Below the pieces are notes generated by a model that did no database searches, was not told the DNA's origin, and saw nothing but the letters and a program-made list of their open reading frames with translations. Below, piece after piece: positions 53,511-58,037 of a stretch of 64,000 nucleotides of DNA. Each line of letters opens with the position of its first letter. The stretch's first letter is position 1. The stretch is from Aquabacterium sp. CECT 9606 (lineage in GTDB: Bacteria; Pseudomonadota; Gammaproteobacteria; Burkholderiales; Burkholderiaceae_C). The DNA lies in assembly GCF_918741295.1 (NCBI RefSeq), contig NZ_CAKKNB010000004.1:248001-312000 (forward strand). The letters run 5' to 3'. The position numbers and the translations under genes were made by a program.

Positions 53511-53527
53511 CTGGCACGTAACTCGCT
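53511..53527 (+). promoter_or_regulatory. Sigma-54 (-24/-12) promoter of the URC-like operon
   Basis: CTGGCACG-TAAC-TCGCT matches YTGGCACG-N4-TTGCW with one mismatch in the -12 box and exact GG-N10-GC spacing (GG 53513-53514, GC 53525-53526). It is 58 bp upstream of the URC1-like ATG. No clear NtrC site is seen by eye in the 127 bp between it and the rhomboid start. Confidence 0.75.
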
Positions 53528-53584
53528 ATGGTTTGAACCAGGCACCGCACATCGACGGCGCCATCACCGCTGGAGACCACGACC

Positions 53585-54832
53585 ATGTCCGCCCACATCG
53601 TGCTCACGTCGCACCCCACCCGCCACGGCGGCGGGCCCGGCAGCCCCACCGCAGTCCATTGGGGGGCGCCGACTGCGGCGGAGCGAGGGCCCTTGGTGGC
53701 CAGTGTGGGCAGCCCGGCACAGCGCAATGTCATCGGCACCCATTCCGGCGCGTATTCCGTTTACCGCGCCTTGGCCGTGGCCTCGGGTGCCTTGCAGCGC
53801 GACCACAAGCCCGATTTCACCAACACGGCGCCGGTCGAAACCATCGGGCCGCACCCACAGTGGGCGGATCCGCAAAAAATCGTCTCGCTGGATCCTTGGG
53901 GCCACATGGTCTCGGTGGCCTTCGCCGAGCAGATCTCGGCCGGCATGGACGTGCGGCCCACCATCGCCATCACCAAGGCCCACATCAACATGCCCGAGTT
54001 GGTGGCCTCGATCTCGGCCGGGAGGCTCAAGCCCGATGGCGACATCCTGGCAGCCAATGGGGATGTGAAAGTCACCAAGGCGGCCATCGACCCGGTCTGG
54101 CACTTGCCCGGCCTGGCCGAGCGCTTCGGCATCAAGGAAAGCGCCTTGCGACGCAACCTGTTTGAGCAGACCGCCGGCATGTTCCCTGAACTGGTCACGC
54201 GGCCTGATCTCAAGGTCTTCCTGCCACCCATCGGCGGCATGACGCTGTACTTCTTCGGTGATGTGGCCAAGCTGGGCCAGTCGTCCACCAAGGTGGCCTG
54301 CCGGGTTCACGATGAATGCAATGGCTCTGACGTGTTTGGCTCCGACATCTGCACCTGTCGGCCTTACCTTGCCCATGGCATCGAGGTGTGCATCGAGATG
54401 GCGCAGCAAGGCGGCGTCGGCCTGGTCATCTACAACCGCAAGGAAGGTCGGGCCCTGGGCGAGGTCACCAAGTTCCTGGTCTACAACGCGCGCAAGCGCC
54501 AGGTGGGCGGCGACCGCGCCGAGACCTACTTCGCGCGCACCGAGTGCGTGGCCGGCGTGCAGGACATGCGCTTCCAGCAACTGATGCCCGACGTGTTCCA
54601 TTGGTTGGGCATCAAGCGCATCGACCGCTGGGCCTCGATGAGCGACATGAAGCATGGCGCCCTGGTCGAGCAAGGCATCGAGGTGATCGAGCGCGTGCCC
54701 ATCCCCGAAGAGCTGATCCCCGCCGATGCGCAAGTCGAGATGGACGCCAAGAAAGCCGCCGGCTATTTCTCGCACTACACCCCGGATGCGACCGAACTGG
54801 CCCTGCCCAAGGGGCGCGGGTTGATGGAATGA
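53585..54832 (+). CDS. URC1-like GTP cyclohydrolase II paralogue (uracil catabolism)
   Basis: 415 aa, far longer than RibA (~200). A unique ~225-residue N-terminal region precedes a GTP cyclohydrolase II-like domain with zinc cysteines C245-x10-C256-x-C258 (DECNGSDVFGSDICTC). Where RibA has EGRGIGL it has KEGRALGEV, so the activity probably differs. The family is URC1 of the yeast uracil pathway found by Andersen and colleagues, which has bacterial homologues. Its stop overlaps the DUF1688 start (ATGA). SD GGAG precedes ATG 53585. Confidence 0.85.
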   Translation: MSAHIVLTSHPTRHGGGPGSPTAVHWGAPTAAERGPLVASVGSPAQRNVIGTHSGAYSVYRALAVASGALQRDHKPDFTNTAPVETIGPHPQWADPQKIVSLDPWGHMVSVAFAEQISAGMDVRPTIAITKAHINMPELVASISAGRLKPDGDILAANGDVKVTKAAIDPVWHLPGLAERFGIKESALRRNLFEQTAGMFPELVTRPDLKVFLPPIGGMTLYFFGDVAKLGQSSTKVACRVHDECNGSDVFGSDICTCRPYLAHGIEVCIEMAQQGGVGLVIYNRKEGRALGEVTKFLVYNARKRQVGGDRAETYFARTECVAGVQDMRFQQLMPDVFHWLGIKRIDRWASMSDMKHGALVEQGIEVIERVPIPEELIPADAQVEMDAKKAAGYFSHYTPDATELALPKGRGLME

Positions 54833-56115: not shown

Positions 56116-56124
56116 GGACGAGAC

Positions 56125-56766
56125 ATGGCCCACGATTTCCCCAACCTCATGGTCATCGACCACCCCCTGGTGCAGCACAAGCTCACCTGGCTGCGCAACA
56201 AGGACACCAACACCGAGAGCTTTCGCAGCCTCCTGCGCGAAGTCAGCCAGATGCTGGCCTACGAGGCCACGCGTGATCTGCCCACCGAGCTGCAAGCCAC
56301 CCCCACCCCGATCACCACGTTTGATTCCCCGGTGATCAGTGGCAAAAAGCTGTGCCTGGTCTCCATCCTGCGGGCTGGTAACGGCATGGTTGATGGCCTG
56401 TTGTCCTTGCTGCCGCTGGCCCGTGTTGGCCACATTGGCCTGTACCGTGATCCTGGCACACTGGAGCCGGTCGAGTACTACTTCAAGGTGCCCAATGACA
56501 TCGCCGAGCGCCAGGTCATCGTCGTCGATCCCATGCTGGCCACCGGCAACTCGGCCGTCGCGGCCATCGATCGCATCAAGGAATGCGGCTGCGCCAGCAT
56601 CAAGCTGCTGTGCCTGCTGACCGCGCCAGAGGGCGTGGCCAACATGCTCAAACACCACCCTGATGTGCCCATCATCACCGCCTCGCTGGACAGCCACCTC
56701 AACGACCACGGCTACATCGTGCCTGGCCTGGGCGACGCAGGGGATCGGATCTTTGGCACCGTCTGA
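56125..56766 (+). CDS. upp: Uracil phosphoribosyltransferase (URC6-like)
   Basis: 213 aa. PRPP loop [14 protein letters not shown] (about residues 130-143), [12 protein letters not shown], and the uracil-binding C-terminal [16 protein letters not shown]. It forms UMP from uracil and PRPP. Here it sits inside the URC-like operon, nine bases after DUF1688, matching the role of URC6 at the entry of that pathway as well as in salvage. Confidence 0.95.
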
Positions 56767-58037
56767 TGCTGGACCTCATCCTTCGACATTGCACCCTGCC
56801 TGATGGCCAGTCAGACCAGGACATCGGCATCCTCGGTGGGCGGATCGTCGCCGTGCAGCCGGCCCTGTCCACACCCGCCGCGCAAGAGATCAACGTGGCC
56901 GGGCAACTCGTCAGCCCACCTTTCGTCGATGCCCATTTCCACATGGACTCGACCCTCAGCTATGGGCAGCCCCGCATCAATCAATCGGGCACCTTGCTGG
57001 AAGGCATCGCGCTGTGGGGCGAACTCAAACCGACACTGACGCAAGACGCTTTGGTGGACCGCGCCATGGCCTATTGCGATTGGGCTGTGGCCAAGGGCCT
57101 GCTCGCCATCCGTTCCCACGTTGATGTGTGCGACCCCAAGCTGCTGGCGGTGGAGGCCTTGCTGCACGTGCGCGAACGCGTCAAACCCTACCTGGACCTG
57201 CAATTGGTGGCCTTCCCGCAAGATGGCGTCTTGCGCGGCCACAACGCCCTGGTCCAGTTGAAGCGCGCCCTGGACATGGGCGTGGACGTGGTCGGTGGCA
57301 TTCCCCACTTTGAGCGCACCATGCAAGACGGCGCCGAGTCCGTCCGCATCCTCTGCGAGCTCGCCGCCGAACGCGGCCTGCGCGTCGACATGCATTGCGA
57401 CGAAACCGATGACCCAATGTCCCGCCACATCGAAACCCTGGCCTATCACGCGCAACGCCTGGGCATGCAGGGCAGGGTGGCTGGCTCGCACCTCACCTCC
57501 ATGCACAGCATGGACAACTACTACGTCAGCAAGCTGTTGCCCCTGATCAAGGAAGCCGGCGTGGCGGCCATCGCCAACCCCCTCATCAACATCACCCTGC
57601 AAGGCCGGCACGACACCTACCCCAAACGCCGAGGCATGACGCGCGTGCCCGAGTTGCTCGCCCAAGGCATCGACGTCGCCTTTGGGCACGATTGCGTGAT
57701 GGACCCCTGGTACGGCATGGGCAGCGGCGACATGCTGGAAGTGGCGCACATGGGCTTGCACGTGGCGCAGATGACCAGCCAGGCCGCCATGCGCCAATGC
57801 TTCGCGGCCGTCACCACCACGCCGGCCAAAATCCTGGGCCTGACAGGCTACGGGCTGGACGTGGGTTGCAATGCCGACCTGCTCGTTCTGCAAGCCCGCA
57901 ATCCAGTGGAAGCCATCCGCTTGCGCGCCACCCGTTTGCACGTCATTCGACAGGGCCGGATCGTGGCCCAGACACCCCCCAGCGTGGCCGCCTTGACCCT
58001 GCCTGGTCGCCCGGGAAGCGTCGACTTTCTGTGCTAA
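56766..58037 (+). CDS. codA: Cytosine deaminase-like amidohydrolase
   Basis: 423 aa. Metal ligands H57 and H59 in VDAHFHMDST, HCDETDDP (about residue 215), SHLTSMHSM (about 241) and Asp in AFGHDCVMDPW (about 305). These are the CodA-family blocks. It would deaminate cytosine (or a related pyrimidine) to uracil, feeding upp. The ATG shares one base with the upp TGA. Confidence 0.88.
   Translation: MLDLILRHCTLPDGQSDQDIGILGGRIVAVQPALSTPAAQEINVAGQLVSPPFVDAHFHMDSTLSYGQPRINQSGTLLEGIALWGELKPTLTQDALVDRAMAYCDWAVAKGLLAIRSHVDVCDPKLLAVEALLHVRERVKPYLDLQLVAFPQDGVLRGHNALVQLKRALDMGVDVVGGIPHFERTMQDGAESVRILCELAAERGLRVDMHCDETDDPMSRHIETLAYHAQRLGMQGRVAGSHLTSMHSMDNYYVSKLLPLIKEAGVAAIANPLINITLQGRHDTYPKRRGMTRVPELLAQGIDVAFGHDCVMDPWYGMGSGDMLEVAHMGLHVAQMTSQAAMRQCFAAVTTTPAKILGLTGYGLDVGCNADLLVLQARNPVEAIRLRATRLHVIRQGRIVAQTPPSVAALTLPGRPGSVDFLC

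Follow-up and report, generated by a model that had tools for sequence, protein, structure and literature searches.

A probable URC-type pyrimidine catabolic operon with a sigma-54-type promoter in Aquabacterium, and a proposed Qng1-like role for its DUF1688 protein

What is the function of a tightly packed four-gene cluster in Aquabacterium sp. CECT 9606, and how is it controlled? The cluster lies on the forward strand of contig NZ_CAKKNB010000004.1, within a stretch of 64,000 nucleotides (contig positions 248,001 to 312,000, hereafter the window) of a genome of approximately 5.1 Mb. It encodes a homologue of the uridine triphosphate (UTP) cyclohydrolase UrcA/URC1 (53585..54832), a DUF1688/URC4 protein (54829..56115), a uracil phosphoribosyltransferase (UPRT; upp, in the role of URC6; 56125..56766) and a CodA-like cytosine deaminase (56766..58037). 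The first two genes overlap by 4 bases, DUF1688 and UPRT are separated by a gap of 9 bases, and UPRT and the CodA-like gene overlap by 1 base. An earlier note on this DNA had presented these four tightly coupled genes as a URC-type operon with a built-in cytosine deaminase; its coordinates, couplings and families were all exact, and both the family scores and the coupling support its proposal. Based on the findings of this study, the cluster is probably a URC-type pyrimidine catabolic operon with a sigma-54 promoter, by which the bacterium most likely obtains nitrogen, in the form of urea, from cytosine and uracil.

The URC1 protein contains PF12471 and PF00925 and belongs to the UrcA/URC1 family, scoring 765.7 bits with NF005536 (cut-off 403). 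It also matches PDB chains 7eev and 7ej3 at 617 bits (E 1.4e-184); both are deposited as GTP cyclohydrolase II, and we take them to be the structures from Zhang et al. 2021, which is reportedly the primary paper on UrcA as a UTP cyclohydrolase. The adjoining protein is a DUF1688/URC4 member (PF07958, 476.5 bits, cut-off 25), the third gene product is a UPRT of the URC6 role (PF14681; NF001097, 281.3 against a cut-off of 114), and the fourth exceeds the cut-off of the cytosine deaminase subfamily NF005748 (808.6 bits against 438) while falling below that of the other CodA model, NF006685 (437.1 against 483). The URC route had been called poorly understood in the earlier note, a description that is outdated, as the bacterial URC1 homologue UrcA is already reported, in an excerpt of a review, to be a UTP cyclohydrolase that hydrolyses UTP in two steps (PMC9499338).

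DUF1688 is present in 26 of 100 related genomes. The named relatives derive from one genome scan for DUF1688, from which the best 80 of 582 candidate loci were taken: URC1 lies in the same locus in 76 of these 80, and a CodA-like match above 100 bits occurs in 22 (one of them only 30% identical). Among the matches listed, which may omit records very near the window, the closest named relatives are metagenome-assembled genomes called Leptothrix sp. and Aquabacterium sp.

Transcription of the operon would start from CTGGCACGTAACTCGCT (53511..53527, plus strand), which on sequence grounds appears to be a real and well supported sigma-54-type promoter. The motif employed, TGGCAC-N5-TTGCW, has 11 scored positions, of which GG and GC are required; CTGGCACGTAACTCGCT deviates from it at a single position (TCGC for TTGC), carries its GG and GC at -24/-12 spacing, and is the only site of at least 10/11 on either strand of the window, in which 18 further sites reach 9/11. 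A score this high would arise by chance in its upstream stretch with a probability of 0.0035. All 16 same-genus URC1 loci (window included) have a site scoring 9/11 or better, GG/GC in place, 66–96 bases ahead of the start codon, and one of the six loci of other genera in the same set (L039; L and G numbers are our handles for loci and genomes) has a site of 9/11 with GG/GC. Collapsing near-identical same-genus loci left nine representatives, in whose 36 pairs the promoter site is 79% identical, as compared with 31% for the preceding 50 bases and 33% for the following 25. For none of the nine sites does the chance exceed 0.01, the diverged loci L046, L047 and L048 carry the consensus TTGC as their -12 element, and the window genome possesses two rpoN genes (443.3 and 424.2 bits, cut-off 277.35).

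Two observations weigh against this assignment, namely the C for the first T in the window's -12 element and the 19 motif matches in the whole genome (several of them inside reading frames), a number not far above the 11 obtained with a reversed-pattern control. They can be cited for a fortuitous match and a sigma-70 promoter driving the operon, an explanation that we consider unlikely given that the site is far better conserved than its flanks in the nine representatives, that it is kept in four congeners devoid of URC1 and has counterparts scoring 9/11 or better in 20 loci selected from other genera (both sets are described below), and that no sigma-70-like promoter was found in 53380–58220 (shuffled sequences gave a mean of 0.5). 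The -24/-12 site of the earlier note is accordingly upheld by its 10/11 match and its conservation at 16/16 same-genus URC1 loci.

Other sites of the same motif were encountered in the window genome. At L176 (G000:C1:120000-139000), genes for a Bmp-like ATP-binding cassette transporter substrate-binding protein, a formamidase and a biuret amidohydrolase stand behind a -24/-12 site, perhaps for the scavenging of biuret or related nitrogen sources, and a further match precedes a nitrate-type transporter protein gene (named by eye). NifV-/homocitrate-synthase-like and NifS-like genes, also named by eye, lie behind sigma-54 sites at C1:1578296 and C1:1583061 (L158, L159), and from these genes the organism may fix nitrogen. 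A second genomic copy of nearly the same 16-mer (L166) falls inside reading frames and was dropped as a chance match. A GTGA-N4-TCAC dyad recurring upstream was set aside as too weak, being present at 3/8 loci while 4/200 random sets also have a dyad reaching 3.

Four congeners, G007, G013 and G037 (99% completeness) and G040 (86%), retain DUF1688, UPRT and a 10/11 sigma-54 site, and in three of them CodA was seen alongside. URC1 itself was not detected in any of these genomes, where the best RibA-like match reached 48 bits. All four possess PreA of the reductive route, and the three neighbourhoods that were read contain a PreT-like subunit, PreA, a dihydropyrimidinase and a hydrolase near a RutR-like gene, with RutR-type sites near the reductive-route genes; the PreT-like subunit was named by eye and lies below the cut-offs of its best families, families having been scanned in L187 only. 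Reductive pyrimidine degradation presumably has the same task as the URC route by a different chemistry, and the two never co-occur in 35 same-genus genomes: URC1 is present in 16, PreA in 10, both in none and neither in 9 (Fisher p 5e-4, descent not corrected). Seven DUF1688-negative genomes of the genus, several of them less complete, were left out of the 35. By eye, L049 and L050 show a short open frame between the sigma-54 site and DUF1688, with a URC1-like start and an ATGA overlap at its end, and L051 and L052 have, behind the sigma-54 site, a URC1-like beginning that leads into DUF1688.

It is established that UPRT and cytosine deaminase alone constitute a salvage pair, and the operon could on that basis serve the salvage of cytosine and uracil instead of their catabolism. 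The tight coupling of a UrcA homologue and DUF1688 to these two genes, the mutual exclusion of URC1 and the catabolic enzyme PreA in the 35 same-genus genomes, and the nitrogen-type promoter all argue against salvage, which is in our opinion very unlikely.

The computation itself establishes the gene content, the conservation of the promoter and the patterns of joint loss. In the catabolic scheme that we infer, for its substrates, its direction of flux, its activator and its DUF1688 reaction alike, the CodA-like enzyme would deaminate cytosine or a 5-substituted cytosine, UPRT would turn uracil into uridine monophosphate, from which general kinases would then make UTP, UrcA would open the uracil ring of UTP, and DUF1688 would cleave the N-ribosyl bond of the resulting ribosylurea (phosphate), thereby releasing urea for conversion to ammonia by a urease encoded elsewhere. 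Urease alpha was detected in 20 of 20 tested genomes (18 over the cut-off), the window genome included. The presence of URC1, URC4 and UPRT homologues in one operon is shared with URC uracil catabolism (yeast URC1/URC4/URC6; bacterial UrcA), whereas the cytosine deaminase and the sigma-54 promoter are additions of the window operon, and urease would finish the route here in place of the urea amidolyase that source excerpts give for yeast.

The first of these steps may involve a substrate other than plain cytosine. The CodA-like protein matches E. coli CodA (1k6w) over its full length (E 3.4e-110), with metal-site motifs visible in the alignment, while its Cys310 aligns with Asp314 of 1k6w; the Asp of the specificity position is thus absent, and Cys occupies this position in 36 of 37 aligned sequences (window included). 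According to an excerpt of PMC6186785, this Asp of CodA (there numbered Asp315) sets specificity, CodA with Ala at that position gains 5-methylcytosine activity, and 5-methylcytosine deaminase has Ser. Because of Cys310, which differs from both the Asp of E. coli CodA and the Ser of the K. pneumoniae 5-methylcytosine deaminase, the enzyme may prefer a 5-substituted cytosine.

The step assigned to DUF1688 was examined through residue conservation. The reference set consisted of 98 DUF1688 proteins with URC1 in the same locus, the window's included (four named loci duplicate same-genus ones). In this set 93 columns are conserved at 97% or more, and its members violate on average 0.42 of them and at most 4. 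The DUF1688 proteins of the four URC1-less congeners violate 8, 9, 19 and 20 of the 93 columns, while UPRT (4/4) and CodA (in the three seen) violate none of their own conserved columns. G131, R149, K298, E329 and Y330, each invariant in 98/98, are changed in all four. Four further loci, L102, L134, L144 and L151, which show no URC1 within the fetched stretch, have 0–4 violations and keep the five residues. Besides a normal URC operon, G012 carries a DUF1688 paralogue that is divergent (39% identical; L053, G012:C22:46000-60000) and stands next to CodA behind a perfect sigma-54 site, with 34 violations and 19 gaps and with R149, K298 and E329 lost. The natural experiment of the four congeners, in which urcA loss accompanies the loss of K298 and E329 in DUF1688 with UPRT and CodA intact, would expose a dependence of DUF1688 on UrcA.

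Two reservations apply to this interpretation. Since the four URC1-less genomes are related, the changes cannot be counted as four separate events; and the DUF1688 reading frames of these genomes are open, so that the protein may have a new job. DUF1688 might in these congeners have taken on a new role with CodA instead of decaying, for which the open frames, the retained sigma-54 sites and the paralogue beside CodA in L053, itself devoid of R149, K298 and E329 behind its perfect site, can be cited. Set against this are the small number of such loci (five seen, four of them related) and the lack of any sign of what that role would be, and we regard a new role as possible, though somewhat less likely than not.

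Yeast URC4 is said to break ribosylurea down to urea (PMC7530994, in excerpt), which makes an N-glycosidase the natural reading of DUF1688, and sequence comparisons point weakly to one such enzyme, Qng1. Pfam scans of 34 DUF1688 members returned Q_salvage (the Qng1 family, PF10343) in 15 at E of 10 or below (best 0.0011), the next family being returned in 3/34; with a smaller DUF1688 alignment it appeared in 1 of 14 members. When ten members were rescanned singly, eight gave Q_salvage, six of them N-terminally (all ending at profile position 109) and two C-terminally. Against a Qng1 alignment composed of one homologue from an Azospirillum genome and three plasmid records, hhalign paired DUF1688 residues 295–380 with the C-terminal part of Qng1 (P 0.0061) at a score of 28.8, which exceeds those of 40/40 column shuffles (highest 22.1) and of the URC1, CodA and UPRT profiles (15.3, 15.9 and 12.2, respectively). 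This weak alignment places K298 and E329 opposite the Lys and the Asp that are equivalent to K199 and D231 of 7u07 (Qng1), the very residues at which deposited Qng1 chains differ (7u5a, K to C; 7ulc, D to N), presumably because they were made as catalytic mutants. If five of the 93 conserved columns were drawn at random, the chance that both K298 and E329 would be included is 0.002 (simple draw).

Several results run counter to a relationship with Qng1. The best Q_salvage score, from a relative, is 19.1 bits against the Pfam cut-off of 25, and the window protein gives no match; the hhalign probability is only 6%, and the smaller DUF1688 alignment yields P 0.055 for the same region; PDB profile searches with DUF1688 gave nothing up to E 10; and a hidden Markov model built from the four Qng1 proteins drew no clear line between DUF1688 and decoys (best E 0.099 among 98 URC1-linked and 9 other DUF1688 proteins, as against 0.48 among 336 open reading frames of the same regions). 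These weak statistics would suit a DUF1688 that is another hydrolase acting on the open-ring intermediate, its similarity to Qng1 being due to chance. That option, which we find rather doubtful, has to contend with Q_salvage appearing in 15/34 members when the next family appears in 3/34, and with the paired residues being those changed in the deposited Qng1 chains as well as those lost with URC1. Notwithstanding the weak sequence statistics, we lean slightly towards DUF1688 as a Qng1-like N-glycosidase that would release urea from ribosylurea, with K298 and E329 as candidate active-site residues; it would differ from Qng1 (DUF2419) in its score below the Pfam cut-off, in having Glu for Asp and in its proposed substrate. 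As for Qng1 itself, Q_salvage was found once in 22 chosen genomes and in none of 299 sampled genomes of the phylum, where controls gave no signal either, and no Qng1 relative was found in viral contigs. The literature searched held no link between DUF1688 and Qng1, and within it the proposal is new.

The control of the operon is best appreciated from relatives in other genera. Twenty loci (L078–L093, L095, L096, L098 and L100), from Cupriavidus, Caldimonas, Noviherbaspirillum, Zoogloea and kin, Azoarcus and two records titled only Proteobacteria, constitute a selected group and not a random sample, and all twenty have, by selection, a sigma-54 site of at least 9/11 (of the AGGCAC type in L078). 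A RutR-type palindrome with at most 3 mismatches is present in 19 of them (0.9% in random sequence of like composition); it begins 24–34 bases past the first base of the -24 element, where transcription is predicted to start. An exact GCAC-N7-GTGC dyad of the NtrC type lies 55–88 bases upstream in 12/20 (random 2.4%), at distances that cluster at 55–57, 65, 76–78 and 87–88, one helical turn apart; phasing at 10.5 bp gives R 0.86 and a Rayleigh p of about 2e-4, which is optimistic since this period is the best of eight and the loci are related. By automatic gene call, at least 11 of 25 loci have a RutR-like gene after UPRT; two such genes, taken as examples, reach 197 and 206 bits where the cut-off is 368, making them RutR-like and not certified RutR.

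These relatives would combine the same promoter with an upstream enhancer of the NtrC type and, at the predicted start, an operator of the RutR type, an arrangement expected to restrict its firing to times of nitrogen shortage in the presence of uracil. It must be weighed against this that the 20 loci were picked after their upstream sites had been seen, and that L101, a betaproteobacterial locus whose URC1 is 81% identical, has none of the three elements. The remaining named URC1 loci, of which 52 are left once four that duplicate same-genus loci are excluded, also include other betaproteobacteria with a more distant URC1; the RutR operator and the exact NtrC core were found in 0 and 0 of the 52.

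The URC enzymes are not known to be related to the Rut enzymes. The combination of sigma-54, NtrC-type and RutR-type sites at the URC promoter of these selected loci nonetheless resembles the control of the E. coli rut operon, which has RutR and NtrC sites according to an excerpt of PMC10891134 and whose rutA appears in RpoN tables in an extract of PMC8743547. The URC operon family thus appears to follow the same control logic as rut, an unrelated operon, with only the sigma-54 part kept in the window's clade. The RutR-type repressor and its operator, which belong to the same architecture in the relatives and are missing in the window's clade, had escaped the earlier note. In the literature searched, this promoter architecture was not found for URC genes, although the RegPrecise RutR regulon tables (PMC5343134), available in part, might hold URC genes; within that literature the combined architecture is new.

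For the window's own clade, a search for RutR-family proteins was performed in 20 same-genus genomes, with an E. coli control that passes; four genomes without a RutR-like match are less than 90% complete. Six of the 20 contain a RutR-like gene (186–207 bits), and in G012 and G010, congeners with both URC1 and the operator, it is close to the operon. No RutR-like gene was found in the other 14 (best 54 bits; window genome 47.8 bits), and an operator with at most 3 mismatches was found at 0/14 of their URC1 promoters; the best site in the 300 bp scanned in the window has 6 mismatches, which gives no indication of RutR control there. The clade would appear to have shed RutR together with its operator while keeping the sigma-54 core.

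The earlier note had further proposed NtrC/sigma-54 control, of which the sigma-54 part stands, whereas an upstream NtrC dyad was seen only in the relatives (12/20). The computational search for NtrC sites that it recommended, carried out in the window over 300 bp, 200 bp (upstream of the site) and 700 bp, gave nothing above chance upstream of the promoter, and no exact core lies within 700 bp upstream of the window's URC1. Upstream of the promoter, within 700 bp of URC1, an exact core was found at 0/16 same-genus loci; L030 and L048, the only two of the 16 with an exact core, carry it downstream of the promoter. A weak NtrC-like dyad, GCAC-N7-GCGC with one mismatch, is situated downstream of the window promoter (53547..53561, plus strand), where L030 has its exact core at the same place and L048 at a similar one; one-mismatch cores are common by chance, and the dyad is a lead only. 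NtrC itself might still activate the operon as it does the rut operon: the upstream cores of the selected relatives favour this, and the window genome encodes NtrC (TIGR01818, 680.7 bits, cut-off 558.6) and, as a control, has an exact NtrC dyad 261 bp ahead of a gene that was identified by eye as glutamine synthetase. The want of an exact upstream core in the window and the 15 other same-genus loci, the chance level of the best upstream matches (p 0.12 or more) and the position of the window's one-mismatch core argue the other way, and we regard activation by NtrC as a serious contender that nevertheless falls somewhat short of even. NtrC control is thus partly supported: in the relatives, and for the window operon only by analogy with them.

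Upstream of the operon, a divergent rhomboid-family gene occupies 52755..53504 on the minus strand (longest open reading frame; the real start is probably near 53426); it is a neighbour outside the operon and adjoins URC1 on the upstream side in 12 of the 16 same-genus loci, the window included. Directly downstream are tRNA-Leu(caa) (58059..58143, plus strand) and, after it, a terminator-like hairpin (58159..58176, plus strand), one of 4 such sites in the scanned stretch, where shuffled sequences average 2.7. At 36627-37127, 16 kb upstream in the window, the minus strand encodes a sigma-54 activator domain (PF00158). In L034, a gene for a methyl-accepting chemotaxis protein (Pfam-scanned) lies between UPRT and CodA, and the same cluster recurs in L045, perhaps for chemotaxis towards pyrimidines.

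The enzymes of this operon are of a known kind; the new parts are the promoter architecture and the DUF1688 proposal. Considered jointly, a DUF1688/URC4 that is a Qng1-related N-ribosylurea (phosphate) glycosidase with K298/E329 as active site, and a convergent sigma-54/NtrC/RutR control from which RutR was then shed, form a proposal whose prospects we judge to be evenly balanced. If true, it would provide a concrete reaction and an active site for PF07958, a widespread family of unknown function, and would help to round out the chemistry by which the URC route degrades pyrimidines. It would also show two unrelated uracil pathways with one regulatory logic, and one clade in which a regulator is missing together with its site.

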